A stretch of 39,143 nucleotides of DNA, from IMG/VR virus record IMGVR_UViG_3300031240_000020, positions 1 through 39,143 of that record; one strand, given 5' to 3'. Both the position numbers and the translations under genes were made by a program. The notes under the pieces are model-generated. The model searched no databases. It was not told the origin of the DNA and saw only the letters and a list, made by a program, of their open reading frames with translations. This stretch comes from a virus. Positions 16,737 to 30,396 of the stretch are shown piece after piece; within the stretch, counting starts at the first letter, position 1, and each line of letters opens with the position of its first letter.

Positions 16737-16993
16737 TGACTAATAGTTTAGATAAAAAAGCTAATTGTGATATACATGGTTTTGTATTATTTAAACATAA
16801 AATAAATAAAAAAGGTGAATGGTATGTATGTCAGGATTGTCTTAGAGAACAATGGAGAAAAGCTAAGAAAAAACATTATAATAAAAATCCAGGATATACT
16901 AAAGGATGGCAAAAAGACTGTAGGGAAATAAGAAAATATTTCTCTACATATATAAAATTAATGTTATATATAAGTAATGAATCGCCCAAATAG
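16736..16993 (+). CDS. Zinc-finger protein beside tRNA
   Basis: 85 aa. C-x2-H at residues 10-13 and C-x2-C at about 33-36 (CQDC) make a zinc site, followed by a basic helix (REQWRKAKKKHYNKNPGY). The last 10 nt lie inside the tRNA gene. A DNA-binding or HNH-like protein is possible, but no HNH triad is seen. Lies with the tRNA between 18-bp direct repeats, so it is probably a late arrival. Confidence 0.55.
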   Translation: MTNSLDKKANCDIHGFVLFKHKINKKGEWYVCQDCLREQWRKAKKKHYNKNPGYTKGWQKDCREIRKYFSTYIKLMLYISNESPK

Positions 16994-17056
16994 CTCAGTT
17001 GGTAGAGCAACTGCTTCGTAAGCAGTAGGTCGTTGGTTCAATTCCAATTTTGGGCA
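16984..17056 (+). tRNA. tRNA-Thr (anticodon CGU)
   Basis: 73 nt, full cloverleaf: acceptor GCCCAAA/TTTGGGC, D stem GCTC/GAGC, anticodon stem ACTGC/GCAGT with loop TTCGTAA (anticodon CGT at 17017-17019), T stem GTTGG/CCAAT with loop TTCAATT. Discriminator A; CCA is not encoded. It reads ACG, a codon that low-GC hosts usually decode poorly. Confidence 0.95.
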
Positions 17057-19999: not shown

Positions 20000-20403
20000 A
20001 TTTAGTACCTGAGGAAGGGGTAAAAAAAAAGTCGTCTCCTAGAGCTCGTATTGAGGTTCCAAGTGAACAAGAGGAACAAATCAGAGCTTCAGTTTGGATG
20101 GATAAAATGGGAATTGCTCATCATCATTCTCCTAATGGGGGGTTTAGAGATGCCCGAGAAGGCGCCAAATTCAAGCGTATGGGCACCTCTGCTGGTTACC
20201 CGGACTTTGTATTACCTTATGCCAGAAAAGGATACCACGGGCTTTACATTGAGGTTAAACGTAGATACGGAGGTAAACTTTCGGAAGCGCAAATTTATTG
20301 GCGAGATTTATTGATTAGGGAAGGTTATGCCTGGTATGAAGCAAAAGGCGCTGATCAGTGTATAAAAATTGTACAGAACTACTTAGGAATGACAAATGAA
20401 TGA
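19933..20403 (+). CDS. VRR-NUC domain nuclease
   Basis: 156 aa, SD GGAGG. Conserved VRR-NUC pattern: E47/E48 in the first helix, HHHSPNGG (63-70), KRMGTSAGYPD (81-91) with D91, EVK (107-109), Q120 in LSEAQ. This PD-(D/E)XK family includes phage structure-specific and Holliday-junction-type nucleases. Placed with replication genes, it probably processes branched DNA before packaging. Confidence 0.85.
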   Translation: MRTKPTKAYWKAYRGLYGNDKLNLVPEEGVKKKSSPRARIEVPSEQEEQIRASVWMDKMGIAHHHSPNGGFRDAREGAKFKRMGTSAGYPDFVLPYARKGYHGLYIEVKRRYGGKLSEAQIYWRDLLIREGYAWYEAKGADQCIKIVQNYLGMTNE

Positions 20404-20578
20404 TCTAAGTTTTGATGAAAGCAACGCCTTAAGTGAAACAGTAGTCATGTTCATGGAAATGCCAATTAGAAAATTAAGATATACAATAAAATCATTAAAA
20501 AAATATAAAACCGTTGAAGCAAAAGAAGTTATTGATATACTGCAATTAATTATTAATAAGAAGAAAATAAAAGTTTAG
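20396..20578 (+). CDS. Small hypothetical protein
   Basis: 60 aa, overlapping the nuclease by 8 nt. Helical, basic C-terminus (LQLIINKKKIKV). Last gene of the replication operon, followed by a hairpin (20609-20628) and a terminator. Confidence 0.5.
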   Translation: MNDLSFDESNALSETVVMFMEMPIRKLRYTIKSLKKYKTVEAKEVIDILQLIINKKKIKV

Positions 20579-20608
20579 TCCTTGGCAGTGATTTTTACTA
20601 TGTAAGCT

Positions 20609-20628
20609 ATACGTGTTTTGTCACGTAT
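20609..20628 (+). other. Hairpin after the replication operon
   Basis: ATACGTG (20609-20615) pairs with CACGTAT (20622-20628) around TTTTGT. No T-run follows. It may protect the 3' end of the operon mRNA or belong to the RNA region downstream. Confidence 0.5.
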
Positions 20629-20660
20629 CTCCTCGTTTTGGGGTAAAAATATTTGGGACG

Positions 20661-20683
20661 ACCCGTGAATAGCGGGTTTTTTT
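20661..20683 (+). terminator. Rho-independent terminator
   Basis: ACCCG (20661-20665) and CGGGT (20673-20677) flank a 7-nt loop and are followed by TTTTTT. It probably ends the replication operon and marks the upstream limit of the structured RNA region. Confidence 0.6.
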
Positions 20684-20784
20684 ATTATGAATACATGCAA
20701 CCTACTAGAGGATCGCTAGTGGCATTTTATGTGAAGTTTGTTAAGCCGCGCATGTGTTCGCCAATTATGTTGTTACATATCTAT

Positions 20785-20845
20785 GACCCATTTACCTTCC
20801 CCATGTTGGGTGTACTGCGGTGCGCACTGCTTGGTATAATGGGTC
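20785..20845 (+). repeat. RNA module 0 (degenerate)
   Basis: GACCCA (20785-20790) pairs with TGGGTC (20840-20845), then GTCAGTTTACGG, the tail motif of the other modules. The GATACT motif is missing, so this is a weak copy. Confidence 0.4.
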
Positions 20846-20855
20846 GTCAGTTTAC

Positions 20856-20872
20856 GGAAACAGCGTCGCTGA
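20856..20872 (+). repeat. Arm repeat, copy 1
   Basis: GGAAACAGCGTCGCTGA, identical to 21244-21260. Here it folds directly with ATTTCC to make a short hairpin before module A. Confidence 0.8.
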
Positions 20873-20886
20873 TTTCCAAAGGTTAT

Positions 20887-20977
20887 GCCCTATGATACCT
20901 GGCCAATAGGATTTGAGTAATTAACTCAATTAAACAGGCATGATGAATCATGTGACCAGCGAAGGGTAAAATAGGGC
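20887..20977 (+). repeat. RNA module A
   Basis: Outer helix GCCCTAT/ATAGGGC, motif TATGATACCT, inner helix CTGG/CCAG, hairpins TTGAGT/ACTCAA and CATGAT/ATCATG, then GGGTAAAATA. The tail shares 21 identical bases (20968-20988) with module C (21576-21596). Confidence 0.7.
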
Positions 20978-20999
20978 GCCAGTTTATGTAAAAAATGTC

Positions 21000-21242
21000 G
21001 TGGAAATGAAATTGAATAGACAATATTTTTTTGATAAATATTTAAACAAAATTATTGAATATAGGGAAAAATATTCAATATTAGAAAAACAATTAGAAAC
21101 TGCTACTGCTAGAAATGTAATATTTATTAAATCTTTGCAAGAAGATTTGTCGATAAAATTTTGTAAATTTATTCTAAAACCAAATGTTTATTTTGAATTA
21201 GAAGAGCAAAAATATATTGAAAATTTATTAATTAAAGATTAA
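21000..21242 (+). CDS. Small coiled-coil protein inside the RNA region
   Basis: 80 aa, Lys/Glu/Ile-rich with a heptad-like stretch (IIEYREKYSILEKQLETATA). Its AT-rich coding style matches the phage genes, not the flanking RNA. It lies exactly between the two arm repeats, its stop ending 2 nt before copy 2. No good SD is visible. Could be an inserted gene or chance reading frame; the coding-like composition favours a gene. Confidence 0.45.
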   Translation: MEMKLNRQYFFDKYLNKIIEYREKYSILEKQLETATARNVIFIKSLQEDLSIKFCKFILKPNVYFELEEQKYIENLLIKD

Positions 21243-21243
21243 T

Positions 21244-21260
21244 GGAAACAGCGTCGCTGA
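21244..21260 (+). repeat. Arm repeat, copy 2, with 120-nt insertion domain
   Basis: Same 17 bases as 20856-20872. Its partner TGTTTCC lies at 21384-21390, so the arm encloses about 120 nt with its own hairpins (ACACC/GGTGT, CGG/CCG and GGCC-rich stems). The following AAAGTTTATGG leads into module B as AAAGGTTATG leads into module A. Confidence 0.75.
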
Positions 21261-21399
21261 CAGTGAAGCGAATTCGGTAACACCCTGTGAGGTGTGAAAC
21301 GGTTAAAACCCGTGGCAGACGAGCCTGAAAATGGTAGACCACAGCGCTGAAGTTCCTGGCCAGAAGAACGTGCAATTCGTTCCTGTTTCCAAAGTTTAT

Positions 21400-21468
21400 G
21401 GCCTATGATATTTAGTATGGGGTTGGCATAGCCACACCATTTAAATGATTAGCTAAATAAGATAGGCC
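21400..21468 (+). repeat. RNA module B
   Basis: Outer helix GGCCTAT/ATAGGCC, motif TATGATATTT, inner helix TTTAG/CTAAA, apical hairpin ATGG...GGC/GCC...CCAT. Shortest copy (69 nt). Tail ACCAGTTTATG. Confidence 0.7.
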
Positions 21469-21478
21469 ACCAGTTTAT

Positions 21479-21585
21479 GCCCGACGATACTTTTTACAAG
21501 ACGAAAGCCTAAGTTTGACGAATGCGTTCCACGCACTAGGATGATAACCGAGGGTTAGTAGAAACGATTTAAAGGAAAATAGGGC
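21479..21585 (+). repeat. RNA module C
   Basis: Outer helix GCCC/GGGC, motif GACGATACT, inner helix CTTT/AAAG, then GGAAAATA. Tail GCCAGTTTATGG is shared with module A. The first bases CCGACGATACT match module D exactly. Confidence 0.7.
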
Positions 21586-21595
21586 GCCAGTTTAT

Positions 21596-21683
21596 GGCCG
21601 ACGATACTAAAACTATAAATTAATCCTTTGATGGATACTAATCCTTTCCGTGAGAGTCGGATGATGTTTTGGGAAAATAGGCC
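21596..21683 (+). repeat. RNA module D
   Basis: Outer helix GGCC/GGCC, motif GACGATACT, inner helix AAAAC/GTTTT, then GGGAAAATA. Tail TCCATTTTTTA. Confidence 0.7.
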
Positions 21684-21704
21684 TCCATTTTTTATCTACC
21701 AAAA

Positions 21705-21733
21705 AATTACCAATTAATGTCAAATTGGTAATT
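21705..21733 (+). other. Strong AT hairpin between modules D and E
   Basis: AATTACCAATT (21705-21715) pairs perfectly with AATTGGTAATT (21723-21733), with A-run before and GTATTTT after. It could be a weak terminator separating two transcripts. The surrounding 21685-21835 is AT-rich, unlike the modules. Confidence 0.5.
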
Positions 21734-21749
21734 GTATTTTGTTAAATGT

Positions 21750-21776
21750 TTGATGGGTTAAAAAGATATATATAAT
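21750..21776 (+). promoter_or_regulatory. Possible promoter before module E
   Basis: TTGATG (21750-21755) and a perfect TATAAT (21771-21776) with 15-bp spacing, shorter than ideal. If used, it would transcribe module E and the tRNA-like element separately. Confidence 0.35.
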
Positions 21777-21840
21777 TGATTAATATATAATTTAACTTTA
21801 ATTTTGTTAATTGCTCTGATAAGCTCTGTTAAATGTTCAT

Positions 21841-21942
21841 GGCCGATGATACTGATGTGCGAGTTTTATATTATGTCCGTGCTGGTCATTACTAGTTAAC
21901 TCCAGCGGAATGAAAAACTTTATATCTGAGGGAAAGTAGGCC
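21841..21942 (+). repeat. RNA module E
   Basis: Outer helix GGCC/GGCC, motif GATGATACT, inner helix AGTTTT/AAAACT, then GGGAAAGTA. Tail TCCAATTTATGG runs straight into the tRNA-like element. Confidence 0.7.
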
Positions 21943-21953
21943 TCCAATTTATG

Positions 21954-22034
21954 GATTCAGTACCTCAGATGGTTAGAGGACATTGAGTACTATAGTACTA
22001 GGTGAAGTCGTTGGTTCAACTCCAACCTGAATCC
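21954..22034 (+). ncRNA. tRNA-like structure without anticodon loop
   Basis: Acceptor GATTCAG/CTGAATC (7 bp; a flanking G-C at 21953/22034 would extend it to 8), linker TA, D arm CCTC/GAGG with AGATGGTTA, T arm GTTGG/CCAAC with canonical loop TTCAACT, 5-nt variable loop. The anticodon arm is abnormal: CATTG/AGGTG with two G-U pairs and one mismatch, then AGTAC/GTACT closing a 4-nt TATA loop. No 7-nt loop exists, so it cannot decode. It may act as a processing signal or tRNA mimic. Confidence 0.75.
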
Positions 22035-22062
22035 TTCAATAGTAATAATTTATTATTTGATA

Positions 22063-22068
22063 TATAAT
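22063..22068 (+). promoter_or_regulatory. -10 element for the 309-aa gene
   Basis: Perfect TATAAT 61 bp before the ATG of the coiled-coil gene. No good -35 at the usual distance (TAGTAA at 17 bp), so an activator or alternative factor may be needed. Confidence 0.4.
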
Positions 22069-22128
22069 GTCTCGTTCCCTTCCTTTTTTCCCTTTCCTGT
22101 TTTAAATGTATTTCTGGAGTAAATTAAT

Positions 22129-23058
22129 ATGGACATTAATGTACCAGCAGGTCAAACCAGTGGTCTTCATTTGCACGATAGAAATGAAAATCACACAAAC
22201 GAACATTGCTCTTCTGCCGGGCAAGTTGAACGCTTAAGTTTAGCTGGAATTTCAGCAACTAATAGCAATGCTGTTGAAGGTCGAGCATTAACCAATGCAA
22301 ATGGTGTTGAAGGTCGTGGAGAAACCGAAAGATTCGGTTTTCAAAACTTGAATGCTGTAAGAAATGAAGCGGTAGAAACACGCAATAAAGTTGAACGCAA
22401 TGGTGATAAAAATGAATCCACAACTGAAAAGTTTGGATTATATAATGCCAATAAAGTTGATCAGAGCATCGATGCTACAAAAGATGGCATTAAAGATGCA
22501 ATGCTTCAATCTGCACAAGACACAGCAAGTTTAATGGTAAGCCAAACTATAGGCTTTAAAGATGGACTGTTAAAAGCATGTGGTGATACAGCTTCAATCA
22601 TACAAAATGCTAACAGCGGTTTCCGCGATTCTCTTTTGCAAGCTTCTAACAATGCCGCAGCTATACAGGCTTCTATTGCTAGCGGTGTTTGTGGAATTGA
22701 AAAAGAAATAGCTTTTGTTAAAGGTTCTGTTGAACTACAAGCTGCAAACAATCGTGCTGCGTTAGAGCTAGAAGCCGCTAAGAACTTAGCCGCTGTTCAG
22801 CTTACAGCAACAATTAATGCAAAAGATGCTGCATTGACAGCTGCACATAATACAGCTGCATTGATGGCTAAAATTGCAGAATGTTGCTGCGAAAATAAAG
22901 CATTGGTTATTGAAAAAGCAAATGGTACTGATATGCTGATTCGAAAACTTGATGAAGATCGCGTTAAAGATCAATTACAATTCGCTCGTGATGAATTGGT
23001 TGCTCTTCGTTTACGTGCTTCTTTAGTTCCCCCAGTAGTTGCAGCAGTGTCATTGTAA
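22129..23058 (+). CDS. Ala-rich coiled-coil protein, ECCCENK motif
   Basis: 309 aa, SD TGGAG. After an N-terminal His/Asn-rich part it becomes repetitive Ala/Asn/Glu helix (AANNRAALELEAAKNLAAVQ) with about 11-residue spacing, then AECCCENK (about 256-263) and TDMLIRKLDEDRVKDQL. Proteins with the CCCE..L..EKA..TD.LIR signature occur in many phages without known function. It has its own -10 and a strong terminator, so it is probably highly expressed; a structural or filament-forming role is a guess. Confidence 0.65.
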   Translation: MDINVPAGQTSGLHLHDRNENHTNEHCSSAGQVERLSLAGISATNSNAVEGRALTNANGVEGRGETERFGFQNLNAVRNEAVETRNKVERNGDKNESTTEKFGLYNANKVDQSIDATKDGIKDAMLQSAQDTASLMVSQTIGFKDGLLKACGDTASIIQNANSGFRDSLLQASNNAAAIQASIASGVCGIEKEIAFVKGSVELQAANNRAALELEAAKNLAAVQLTATINAKDAALTAAHNTAALMAKIAECCCENKALVIEKANGTDMLIRKLDEDRVKDQLQFARDELVALRLRASLVPPVVAAVSL

Positions 23059-23314: not shown

Positions 23315-23550
23315 TGTTCCATGTAGAACAATTTTTTGTACTAATTGATTAATTTGTAATCAAATTTAATTTTGGAGTAGTTAACAGTCATTAACAGTAG
23401 TTAAGGGTGTCACCCATTAGTGAAAATGGTAGTTAAATATCGATTTTTTGCTTTAAATATAGGGTTTAAGTGGGTGGGACCCATTCATCGTTGACAAATG
23501 AAAAAAGGGGCAGATTGATATAAAAAATATTCATTCTCCCCCTTTTTATC
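23315..23550. promoter_or_regulatory. Repeat-rich regulatory gap before the lysis genes
   Basis: The 428-nt gap 23264-23691 has no gene I can support. It holds a TGTTC/GAACA dyad (23315-23330), TTAACAGT repeated at exactly 10-bp spacing (23381, 23391, then TTAAGGG at 23401), paired GGGTGTCACCC and GGGTGGGACCC blocks (23405-23415; 23473-23483), TTGACA (23491-23496) without a clear -10, and a stem AAAAAGGGG/CCCCTTTTT (about 23502-23547) able to act as a terminator. Confidence 0.45.
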
Positions 23551-25492: not shown

Positions 25493-25927
25493 ATGGCTAA
25501 TACAGGTGGAAGACCCACTATTTACAGCGATGAATTAGTAGATTATGTGTGTGGATTAATTGCCACCCATTGCATGGGTTTGCATGGTTTGTATGCTGAA
25601 TATACTGATTTTCCTCATCCAAGAACTATTCAATTTTGGGTATACAAATATCCAGAGTTTTTACGCAAGTACCTAGAAGCTAAGAGTGCTCAGTCGCATA
25701 TTTTGTTGGATAATACTATAGATATAGCTAATTATAATACTGATGATTCATTACTAAAAATAAATAGAGATAAACTTATTATTGATACTTATAAATTTAA
25801 TGCAACAAGATTAAATAGAAGAGATTATGGAGATAAGACTCAAATAGAGAACATAAATCCTACCGAAGAAAAAGAAGAAGTAAGGAAACTGGTAGAAAAA
25901 TGCAAGAAGAACATCAAAAAGAAATAG
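25493..25927 (+). CDS. Small terminase subunit
   Basis: 144 aa from ATG 25493 (GAGAG upstream); an ATG 30 nt earlier has no SD and lies in the previous gene. Begins GGRPTIYSDELVDYVC, the standard start of P22/phage small terminases, and has a helical central part with a basic C-terminus (EKCKKNIKKK). Recognises the pac site and loads DNA onto the large subunit, whose gene overlaps by 28 nt. Confidence 0.75.
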   Translation: MANTGGRPTIYSDELVDYVCGLIATHCMGLHGLYAEYTDFPHPRTIQFWVYKYPEFLRKYLEAKSAQSHILLDNTIDIANYNTDDSLLKINRDKLIIDTYKFNATRLNRRDYGDKTQIENINPTEEKEEVRKLVEKCKKNIKKK

Positions 25928-27456
25928 ATTATGATAATCAATTAAGAGAAGATTTGTTATCAAGTCTTTTTTTATTTCACTGCGTTATATTCGAAAAACG
26001 TACCGGTCGTGAATTTAAAATAAGTCATCCTGATAGTAATGAATCACATTTCATTACTGTTTGTCGTGAACTTGAGAATATGTTTTATCTAAAACATAAC
26101 AGATTAATAATCAATCTTCCGCCTGGATGGGCAAAGTCTGAAATATGTAAGAGTTTCATTTGTTGGTGCTTTGCTCATTATCCAGATTGTAAATTTCTTT
26201 ATATCAGTCACTCGTTTGAGCTAGCTGTAATTCATACTTCTGAGATAAAGCAAACAATGATTATGCCATTCTATCGCAAGATGTTTGGTATTGAGATAAG
26301 GCGTGATAGCTCAGCTAAAGACTTTTTTAGGACCACAGCAGGTGGCGCCGTTGCTGCATTTGGATCTAAAGGTGCTATAACAGGTCAAGATGCTGGATTA
26401 CCTGGCGAGAATAGATTCACTGGCGCGGCAATGATTGATGATATTCATAAGCCAGAAGAAATCCATTCAGATACAATTAGAGATCGTGTTAAACGTAACT
26501 ATTTCGAGACGGTAGAAAGACGTTTGCGAGCGCCCAATGTACCATTGATATTGATAGGGCAAAGGCTTCACGAAGATGATTTGATGGCGCATTTGATGTC
26601 AGGAGCTGACGGTCAAGATTGGCGTAAAGTAATCATTAAAGCGCTTGATGATGCTGGTAATGCTCGCTATCCTGAGGTCAACCCAAAGAAACAATTACTA
26701 ATAATGCAGGAGAAACAGCCTTATGTATTTGCTTCACAATTTCAACAAGATCCTATGCCTGCTGGTGGTGGTTTATTTAGGACTGAGTGGTTTCCTTTAT
26801 TGGATCAATCTCCGGATATTATATCAAGCTTCATTACCGTTGACTCAGCAGAAACCAAAGAAGAATATAATGATGCTACAGTTTTTAGCTTTTGGGGAGT
26901 TTATAAAATCAATTTTAATGGGTCTGATATTGATAATATGTATGGATTACATTGGATAGATTGTCATGAACTTAGAATAGATCCTAAAGACTTGCAAGAC
27001 GAGTTCATGGACTTTTGGACTGGATGCATGCGTTATAAGATCAAGCCAAAGTTTGCAGCTATTGAGAAGAAGTCTACTGGCGTGACTTTGATATCAGTTT
27101 TAAAGGATATTCAAGGTCTTCGTATCATTGATATAGAGCGCTCAGGAACCAAAAATAGTAAGACCAATCGTTTCCTTGAGATGCAGCCATTCATAGCCAG
27201 CAAGCAAGTATCATTGCCTGCCACTGGCAAGCATACTACAATGTGTTTAACTCACATGAGCAAGATAACTGCTAATAATGTCCACAGGTTCGATGATATT
27301 GCAGATACTTGTTATGATGCTGTTAAGATGGCTTTGATAGATAGAATTATCATCAACAAAGAGATTGGTACGACAGATCATAGTGCTATGGCTAAAAACT
27401 TGATATCTACTTACAACAGGATGGATAGACTTAAGAAGGCGGCTTATGGGAATTAA
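25900..27456 (+). CDS. Large terminase subunit (ATPase and nuclease)
   Basis: 518 aa. Walker A-type INLPPGWAKSE (71-81), Walker B AAMIDD (176-181), motif LILIGQRLHEDD (216-227). Nuclease residues D315 (ITVDSAE), E389 (AAIEKKSTG) and D465/D466 (RFDDIAD) fit the RNase H-like fold. Pumps DNA into the prohead and cuts it. P22-like partners suggest headful packaging, which agrees with the circular assembly. Confidence 0.93.
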   Translation: MQEEHQKEIDYDNQLREDLLSSLFLFHCVIFEKRTGREFKISHPDSNESHFITVCRELENMFYLKHNRLIINLPPGWAKSEICKSFICWCFAHYPDCKFLYISHSFELAVIHTSEIKQTMIMPFYRKMFGIEIRRDSSAKDFFRTTAGGAVAAFGSKGAITGQDAGLPGENRFTGAAMIDDIHKPEEIHSDTIRDRVKRNYFETVERRLRAPNVPLILIGQRLHEDDLMAHLMSGADGQDWRKVIIKALDDAGNARYPEVNPKKQLLIMQEKQPYVFASQFQQDPMPAGGGLFRTEWFPLLDQSPDIISSFITVDSAETKEEYNDATVFSFWGVYKINFNGSDIDNMYGLHWIDCHELRIDPKDLQDEFMDFWTGCMRYKIKPKFAAIEKKSTGVTLISVLKDIQGLRIIDIERSGTKNSKTNRFLEMQPFIASKQVSLPATGKHTTMCLTHMSKITANNVHRFDDIADTCYDAVKMALIDRIIINKEIGTTDHSAMAKNLISTYNRMDRLKKAAYGN

Positions 27457-27962: not shown

Positions 27963-28328
27963 ATGGAAGATAAAAAGAAGAAAAAAGTAATATCAGAAAA
28001 AACACACATAAAACATATGTTTGCTAAAGACAAAGAAATAGATTTTCTAAAAAAAGTTGTAAATGATCAAAGAATTCTATTGGATAGAGATAGAAATAGA
28101 AAAGATGAACACATGAGATCTTTATACGAATTGAGATCATATGATGAAATAGTTAATGATATTAAACAAATGTTTCATAATAATTTGCATGATATAAATA
28201 TGAATATCAATGAAGTTAGAACATTTATGATTGAAACTTGTCGTGTTGTTGAAAGATTAGAAAAACAATTTGGAGAACTGTCACATGGAAGTGGCAAAAA
28301 GGCACCAAGAGCAACTAGAAAGGATTAA
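27963..28328 (+). CDS. Hypothetical coiled-coil protein
   Basis: 121 aa, GAGG 10 nt before ATG. Lys-rich start, long helices (VNDQRILLDRDRNRKDEHM) and a basic C-terminus (KKAPRATRKD). Similar size, style and start context to the gene before it, so the pair may be an old duplication. Overlaps the portal gene. Confidence 0.55.
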   Translation: MEDKKKKKVISEKTHIKHMFAKDKEIDFLKKVVNDQRILLDRDRNRKDEHMRSLYELRSYDEIVNDIKQMFHNNLHDINMNINEVRTFMIETCRVVERLEKQFGELSHGSGKKAPRATRKD

Positions 28329-30396
28329 GACAAATGTACGTCGTTCATACGACTACTTCAAACCAAACTATGACAGATACAACGAGTTCAGACGATTTGT
28401 ATTTGAATCATCTCTAAAGGATGATGAAATACAATTACTCATGGCTCAATCTAAACCTCAGCTTGAGTTTAACGTACTAGAGGCTTATATATCGCGTCTA
28501 TTAGGCGAATTCTCTAAGCAAGAGCCTGATATTGAAGTTTCAGCAGATGATCAGAGTAAAGCTGATCCAATGACTATTAAGGTCATAGAACAGCATCTTC
28601 GCCATACTTTGTTAGATCCTAAAAACCATAACACTCGATATGAAGTGTATAAAGACCTGTTATCTGGAGGTTTTAGTTCTCTTAAAATATTTACTGATTA
28701 CGCTAATCCTATGAGCATGCACCAGATCATTGATATAGAACGTGCATTTGATCCAACATTGTGTGGGTATGATCAATTAGCACGCTATTCGCATAAAGGG
28801 GATGGTAGATTCTGCTTCGAACTGTTTCCAATGTCTAAGGATGATTTCAAAGAAGAATACCCAGACATTGATGTAGAAAGGTTAAGTTTCAAGCGTGGCT
28901 TTGCTGGTTTCAATTGGTCATATCTGAATGATACAACTCCAACATTAATCATTGCTGACTATTATGAGAAGAAAAAGAAAGAGACAAAGATCGTAGAGAC
29001 TCGTGAAAATAAAGTAATGACGCTTGATGAATATAATAAGATGCTTGATGAATGGGATAAGTTTGAAGCGCCACCAGCAATCATTGGTAAACCGCGTAAG
29101 ACAATGCTTGAAACTATATGCAGATATCGCCTTATAGAAAATATGGTGATGAAGTATGAAGAAACAGACTTTAGGTGTCTTCCACTAATATTTGTGGATG
29201 GTAGTTCTGTTATGGTTAAAACTCCTAAGAATGGCAATGTAAGGCAAGTATGTAGGCCTTATGTGTACCACGCTAAAGGCGCTCAACGTCTTAAGAACTA
29301 TGCTGGTATTGCATGGGCAAACGAAATTGAAAACACTGTGCAGCATAAATTCATGGTTGCTAAAGAAGCATTACCTAAAGAAGAAGACTTTTTACAAGCA
29401 TATAAGGATGTGCAGAAAGCTAGTGTGTTGGTTTACAACTCAGTACACGAAAACAACCCAGATATGCCTATATCGAACCCTATTCGTGAGATTCAGCGTG
29501 TTCCAATGCCGGTTGAGATATCTCAAGCATTCACTGGTTCCGATTCATTAATTCAGAACATTCTAGGTAGTTACGATGCAAGTCTTGGTATAAATAACAA
29601 TCAGCTTTCAGGAGTTGCAATAGTAGAAGCCGCTAGCCAAAGCAATTCTACTGCAATGCCATACATTGTTGGTTATCTGCAAGGATATAGTAGAGCCGCA
29701 GAAGTTTATGTTGATCTGATGCCTAAGTATTATACGACACCTAGAACGCTTCCTCTGATTGATGAAGAAGGCAAGAAAGGATATATCAAAATAAACCAAG
29801 ATGATGGCATGCCGATGGATTTTGACACTAATGATCTAAATGTCGTAGTAAAAGCCGGCGCTTCATTCCAAGTTCAGAAATCTCGTACGCTGATGATGGT
29901 AAAAGAAATGATGGGCATGTCTCCTATCTTTGCTCAGTTTATAGCAGAGAAAGGATTGAACTTTGTCTTGGATAACATGGAAGGTAAGGGTGTTGATCAG
30001 CTTAAGAGTATGGTGGATGAATGGTTACAAGAAATGCAGCAACAGAAAGCTATGGCAATGCAGCAACAACAGCAAGAAATGCAGAATAACCCTGCTGTGA
30101 TGAAGCAGAAAATAGACGCCCAAAAGTTGATGCAACAATCAGTAAAAGATGATAAACAATTCCAGATGGATATGGCTAAATTAGAGATGGATGAGAAAAA
30201 GTTATTGGCTGACTTGCGTATATCTCAAGATCAATCAGCTGTGCAGCTTGTTAAGGCCAATACTGAGAGATTTGCTAAGTCTGTTGATTTACAGATGCAG
30301 CATCATGATATGAAACATAGGCATATGAAAGAAGCTATTGAGACTCATCATATGGTTTCACAGCCTAAAGTACAACCTCAACATCAAGGAATGTAA
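28285..30396 (+). CDS. Portal protein, P22 gp1-like
   Basis: 703 aa from ATG 28285 (GGAGA upstream); P22 portal is 725 aa. Features: LEFNVLEAYISRLLGEFSKQ near residue 55, a wing/stem alpha-beta body, and a long Gln/Met-rich C-terminal helix (about 580-690, MQQQQQEMQ and MQQSVKDDK) like the P22 portal barrel. Forms the dodecameric DNA channel; neighbour to terminase and scaffold. Confidence 0.85.
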   Translation: MEVAKRHQEQLERIKTNVRRSYDYFKPNYDRYNEFRRFVFESSLKDDEIQLLMAQSKPQLEFNVLEAYISRLLGEFSKQEPDIEVSADDQSKADPMTIKVIEQHLRHTLLDPKNHNTRYEVYKDLLSGGFSSLKIFTDYANPMSMHQIIDIERAFDPTLCGYDQLARYSHKGDGRFCFELFPMSKDDFKEEYPDIDVERLSFKRGFAGFNWSYLNDTTPTLIIADYYEKKKKETKIVETRENKVMTLDEYNKMLDEWDKFEAPPAIIGKPRKTMLETICRYRLIENMVMKYEETDFRCLPLIFVDGSSVMVKTPKNGNVRQVCRPYVYHAKGAQRLKNYAGIAWANEIENTVQHKFMVAKEALPKEEDFLQAYKDVQKASVLVYNSVHENNPDMPISNPIREIQRVPMPVEISQAFTGSDSLIQNILGSYDASLGINNNQLSGVAIVEAASQSNSTAMPYIVGYLQGYSRAAEVYVDLMPKYYTTPRTLPLIDEEGKKGYIKINQDDGMPMDFDTNDLNVVVKAGASFQVQKSRTLMMVKEMMGMSPIFAQFIAEKGLNFVLDNMEGKGVDQLKSMVDEWLQEMQQQKAMAMQQQQQEMQNNPAVMKQKIDAQKLMQQSVKDDKQFQMDMAKLEMDEKKLLADLRISQDQSAVQLVKANTERFAKSVDLQMQHHDMKHRHMKEAIETHHMVSQPKVQPQHQGM

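Follow-up and report, generated by a model that had tools for sequence, protein, structure and literature searches.

Background

Bacteriophage T4 carries within its tRNA cluster two small stable RNAs, RNAC (species 1) and RNAD (species 2), which are described as "of yet unknown functions" (PMC9697503). In our own reading RNAC contains a T-arm-like hairpin (CCGGG-TTCGAAT-CCCGG) beside an imperfect closing stem and lacks an anticodon arm. ROOL and GOLLD RNAs, encoded by phages and prophages and often located near tRNA islands, are also of unknown function (PMC12286853). Metatranscriptomes of forest and peat soils contain polycistrons of allo-tRNA-like and otherwise irregular tRNAs (Mukai et al. 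2017, reviewed in PMC7609411); as the review section describes them, these RNAs are transcribed, some carry a G at position -1 which lengthens the acceptor, and E. coli enzymes do not charge them (PMC7609411). Bacterial tRNASec has an acceptor domain of 8 + 5 bp, together with a 6-bp D stem and a 4-nt loop, and decodes (PMC7609411).

We analysed a 39,143-base virus record, the whole of which is referred to here as the window, and identified an array of small structured units having partial precedents in T4 RNAC/RNAD and in the soil polycistrons. The T4 RNAs resemble the array in being small stable phage RNAs within a tRNA cluster, but they are not repeated units and their sequences are different, and R1, our covariance model of the repeated module, has no match in the T4 tRNA region. 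ROOL and GOLLD differ in that each is one large RNA, above 800 nt in many GOLLD members, which assembles into a homo-oligomeric cage. A sequence-only reading of this DNA had suggested a relative of GOLLD or ROOL; no sequence or structure match to GOLLD, ROOL, HEARO or OLE was found in the array even at permissive thresholds. Like the soil polycistrons as reviewed, the phage units form arrays of irregular tRNAs. The soil allo-tRNA-like molecules are however of the 8/4 type with an extra loop, whereas the phage units are 8/5 with a large insert and their 8 + 5 pairing places them outside the 12-bp acceptor domain (8/4 or 9/3) of allo-tRNAs. The section of the review covering these polycistrons mentions neither the R1 module nor a phage origin; judged by description, the soil polycistrons may represent arrays of this phage type detected at the RNA level. 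The tRNA-like units share the 8 + 5 bp acceptor domain of tRNASec but are without a normal-sized anticodon arm.

Results

An array of distinct units in a tailed-phage genome

The window contains tailed-phage genes including those for the terminase large subunit and the portal, whose nearest cultured relatives show approximately 34% (TerL) and 24% (portal) identity. The array is flanked upstream by a resolvase-like gene ending at 20403, which is followed by a 60-aa ORF, and downstream by a 309-aa ORF starting at 22129. Its features are listed below, with bit scores for modules M0 to M5 referring to R1.

20660..20685, + strand: hairpin resembling a terminator, with a T run after it, bounding the array upstream (consensus scan; candidate only)
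20785..20845, + strand: M0, possible degenerate module, GACCC/GGGTC stem followed by GTCAGTTTACG (weak, 8.4 bits)
20856..20877, + strand: small hairpin GGAAACAGCGTCGCTGATTTCC (direct repeat D3; fold)
20887..20981, + strand: M1, module of the R1 family, 3′ end GCCA (40.6 bits; fold z -3.2)
21000..21242, + strand: 80-aa ORF inside the array (GTG start; ATG at 21006)
21244..21390, + strand: tRNA-like element of the R2 family (R2, 58.7 bits, E 7.2e-14)
21400..21472, + strand: M2, 3′ end ACCA (53.1 bits; fold z -4.2)
21473..21478, + strand: linker GTTTAT between units (sequence)
20982-20988, 21590-21595 and 21947-21952: further linkers of the GTTTAT kind
21479..21589, + strand: M3, 3′ end GCCA (55.6 bits)
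21596..21687, + strand: M4, 3′ end TCCA (64.8 bits)
21841..21946, + strand: M5, 3′ end TCCA (51.5 bits)
21953..22034, + strand: tRNA-like element closing the array (RF00005, 42.3 bits in a permissive search; fold)
25900-27456: terminase large subunit
28270-30396: portal

The units thus run in order from the possible M0 through the small hairpin, M1, the 80-aa ORF, the R2 unit, M2, M3 and M4 to an AT-rich stretch, M5 and the tRNA-like element at 21953-22034. The tRNA-like element at 21244 begins with the letters of the small hairpin. The sequence-only reading had described five clear modules, all of which R1 recovers in place (40.6-64.8 bits), but had overlooked the two tRNA-like elements and the ORF; a search for a family match to the ORF found none. 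At the loci inspected around CCA-linker sites the modules share the array with other kinds of unit, all spaced by GTTTATG-like linkers. In one contig (L026:5449-5786) four tandem modules lie beside a tRNA-Gln gene and a tRNA-like unit. Within the window, 33 bases of the AT-rich stretch are repeated with 85% identity at 23342-23374, an intergenic position after the 309-aa ORF, and an ordinary tRNA-Thr (CGT) gene lies outside the array at 16984-17056, approximately 4 kb upstream.

The R1 module

The five modules have in common a closing helix GSCC/GGSC, a 5′ motif GAYGATA or TATGATA, a variable hairpin, a 3′ motif GRAAAATA (with variants TAAAATA in M1, TAAGATA in M2 and GAAAGTA in M5) and a terminal NCCA followed by a T-rich linker, the counterpart of which in M4 is TTTTTTAT. 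The shared tail CCANTTTATG reported earlier combines two separate features, namely a 3′ end resembling RCCA and, after it, the spacer preceding the next unit. In M2 the closing helix extends to 7 bp (GGCCTAT/ATAGGCC), the length of a tRNA acceptor stem; among the five modules this longer helix (GSCCTAT/ATAGGSC) folds in M1 and M2 only, and the others may reach the same length by stacking through non-standard pairs. M1, M3 and M4 were absent from the training alignment of R1, and M3 was scored alone as its flank overlaps the match to M2 and cmsearch reports one of two overlapping matches. The weak copy M0 folds its stem better than shuffled sequences (z -2.2), although at 8.4 bits (E 0.03 in 286 nt) and with differing loop letters it is a possible module copy only.

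None of the modules was matched by the tRNA model RF00005, even with the threshold relaxed to E 10. The modules have no T arm, for which reason we rejected their interpretation as minimal cloverleaves. A short peptide (MADDT...) read from ATGGCCGACGATACT was also rejected, as copies differ by indels and several start with ACG or ATT.

Covariation within the variable hairpin

The inner helix was part of no search pattern and its pairing is therefore a fair test of structure. The ends of the variable core pair over a mean of 3.30 bp, compared to 2.10±0.14 bp after swapping ends between different modules, and the covariation score of 50 aligned modules is 0.323 compared to 0.152±0.014 for shuffled and at most 0.151 for slid alignments. 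Among the first three variable pairs we found AU, UA, GC and CG as well as wobbles, and 43 of the 50 copies retain a U-G pair adjoining the internal loop. These values bear out the earlier proposal of an RNA structure under selection. The closing helix and loop motifs did belong to the search patterns, hence their invariance is partly by construction; similarly, the choice of loci by motif biases the apparent size and conservation of the R1 and R2 families, and E-values from these home-made models are rough.

Occurrence in phages and databases

A module covariance model and a search of phage metagenomes had both been proposed from the sequence alone; pattern scans of IMG/VR located the module in about 60 further viral contigs. 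One of these, L003, is a relative almost identical to the window (99%, with a single difference across 20580-22130); a few are near-duplicates of one another, and the remainder represent different phages. The 16 full records carry 1-4 copies each, placing the window with its five at the high end, and in many phages the module stands singly between two ORFs on the same strand. Searches with cmscan against Rfam release 15 found no family matching the module, whether run on the window, on 20300-22300 with E values up to 10 or on 12 related loci, nor did we find a description of it in the published literature searched. The expectation of a new class is upheld in so far as the module is absent from Rfam and has covarying homologues in many phages.

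DNA comparison with 50,697 records of cultured phages and with 72,556 plasmids revealed no meaningful similarity at the sensitivity used. A motif scan of 84,980 prokaryote genomes returned one match (L040), which we take as chance given its 20.5 bits, higher GC and absent flanks. No gene is a constant neighbour of the module, the commonest protein families each being confined to some of the loci. Relatives of one protein, which starts MELEKQVCSLELAKRLKEL (PHROG 31971, unknown function; for example L013:6775-7275), occur in 16 module loci; cultured phages gave no match to it.

tRNA-like units of the R2 family

In the second kind of unit an 8-bp acceptor is combined with a D-like hairpin (loop GACAGTGA) and a T arm (loop TGCAATT), and an insert of 49-159 nt replaces the anticodon arm. 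In the window the acceptor is formed by 21244-21251 and 21383-21390 and the T arm by 21366-21382, also with loop TGCAATT. Searching both strands of all loci for a T arm adjoining an acceptor helix identified 34 structures. Of the 34, 27 share the strand of a module at a distance of up to 1.5 kb, and another four (one in L030, two in L053 and one in L058) lie beside modules found with R1; some are ordinary tRNAs within module arrays.

A non-circular test of this kind of unit was obtained by scanning IMG/VR with the 5′ motif alone. A T arm and a pairing acceptor strand accompany 26 of the 29 matches, the acceptor strands pairing as GGCAATCG/CGATTGCC in 14 cases and GACAATCG/CGATTGTC in nine. The covariance model R2, built from 18 of the 5′-motif matches on contigs chosen for the tRNA-like unit alone, has a covariation score of 0.285 compared to 0.098±0.015 and, although derived from other contigs, matches the window at 21239-21395 with the score listed above. 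At E < 1e-3, 23 of the 58 module loci contain R2 units; these lie on the module's strand, often end to end with a module (L006, L007, L017, L022, L062, L053 and the window) and in L062 and L053 exactly between two modules. The association is not obligatory, with R1 present in just 2 of 23 new contig stretches chosen for R2.

The element closing the array at 21953-22034 has an 8-bp acceptor, a D-type arm with GG in its loop and a T arm GTTGG-TTCAACT-CCAAC. Its RF00005 match was obtained in the permissive search only; it was neither listed in the whole-window Rfam search nor called by ARAGORN. Since a long hairpin stands where the anticodon arm would be, its loop of 4 nt contrasting with the 7-nt anticodon loop of a cloverleaf, the predicted fold does not look able to decode, and we class the element as tRNA-like. 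Automatic annotation probably miscalls units of this class. ARAGORN labels several of them in other contigs (L067:674-807, L030:3987-4125 and L033:7902-8061) as tRNA-Stop, tRNA-His or tRNA-Ala with very long inserts. In a further contig (L089:3059-3254) the insert of a tRNA-like unit seems to hold a second whole tRNA-like sequence, nested within the first.

Ends resembling those of tRNA precursors

RNase P uses a GGU sequence to pair with the substrate RCC and also touches the base at -1; U at -1 and RCCA are contact points, and the enzyme cuts simple model hairpins (PMC11143913). End statistics were taken from 23 modules collected with a pattern demanding nothing after GGCC, such that CCA was not asked for. 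Position -1 is occupied by T in 22 of the 23; a purine follows the helix in each of the 23, succeeded by C (17/23), C (18/23) and A (13/23). Helix, U at -1 and 3′ R-C-C-A are accordingly found in the modules, with the final A in just 13 and CCA not universal. The combination of U at -1, discriminator purine and CC(A) is the signature of a tRNA precursor. Sites of the form CCA(N)TTTAYG are concentrated around the modules, 39 of 57 lying no more than 700 nt from a same-strand module, a zone that makes up approximately 8% of the sequence. From the fit of the ends we consider it probable that the units are processed by RNase P, for which the module, having no T loop, would be a minimal substrate at best.

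Discussion

From the observed structure, covariation, recurrence, array layout and pre-tRNA-like ends we favour, with somewhat better than even confidence, an array of separate small RNAs cut out as tRNAs are and displaying variable heads on constant platforms. That many phages carry a lone module between same-strand ORFs indicates that the units are autonomous and argues for separate small RNAs. A polycistronic phage transcript would be resolved into these units through the tRNA maturation pathway, RNase P cutting just 5′ of the first G of the closing helix, where base -1 is U, and the 3′ side reaching R-CC(A) by trimming or through repair by the host CCA enzyme. One predicted mature product, R1, would consist of a short closing helix, an internal loop GACGATA/GRAAAATA that is invariant and a hairpin head that varies, and the other, R2, of an acceptor, a D + T elbow and a variable insert replacing the anticodon arm. 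Both would serve as constant platforms displaying a fast-evolving RNA head.

The units would then act in trans, likeliest as decoys for a host factor that handles tRNAs such as a tRNA-cutting defence nuclease. This role is tentative and drawn by analogy, since we found neither a single protein or pathway marking the module-bearing phages nor a host. A role of the heads as antisense or guide sequences against the phage's own genome was rejected, the longest complements (11-13 nt) being equal to those of shuffled heads.

A cis-acting mRNA element, either a riboswitch-like sensor or punctuation for cleaving polycistronic phage mRNA between its genes, is an unlikely explanation despite several points in its favour. 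The internal loop is near-invariant, many single copies lie shortly after a stop codon (within 30 nt in 20 of 54) or shortly before a gene (within 60 nt in 18 of 50), and punctuation fits with cutting by RNase P. The downstream gene is however not constant, the spacing varies, and tandem copies, of which there are up to five, would be needless for punctuation.

Less probable again is a folded DNA site for gene-cassette recombination, comparable to an integron attC site or a small mobile element. Conserved ends around a variable palindromic middle, intergenic location and insertion-like presence or absence between homologous neighbours would suit such a site (the gene pair flanking the module in L045, for example, is without one in the window). 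The conserved U-G wobble argues against it, as a DNA hairpin would read a mismatch at that position, as do the shared strand of neighbouring genes (54 of 61 upstream and 50 of 61 downstream) and the end-to-end placement of modules with tRNA-like units and tRNAs.

A further alternative, close to the sequence-only reading, is one giant ornate RNA of approximately 1.3 kb with repeated domains, related or analogous to GOLLD or ROOL and folding and perhaps assembling as a whole. Several structured units in a row near a tRNA-like sequence in a phage do recall such RNAs. Given the absence of an Rfam match, the lone modules between ORFs in many phages at 1-4 copies per full record, and within the array an 80-aa ORF, distinct tRNA-like units and tRNA-like ends on each unit, we regard a single giant RNA as very improbable; the findings point instead to an undescribed phage RNA family. 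Functionless decaying tRNA genes, a reading suited by the irregular tRNAs which automatic tools miss or mislabel, are hardly credible, being already contradicted by the compensatory changes and by the near-invariant loops across many phages.

The separate processed RNAs that we favour define a phage RNA family missing from Rfam, yield two working covariance models and assign 'irregular tRNA' arrays to phage genomes. They also open a long-standing question, the function of phage stable RNAs including T4 RNAC and RNAD, to tests on many natural variants. As the heads change fast on constant platforms, they may face a changing host target. Speculatively, and with about the confidence that we attach to a decoy role, the array could represent a natural display system in which two unrelated processed platforms present many fast-evolving heads from one transcript, in an arms race with tRNA-directed host defences.
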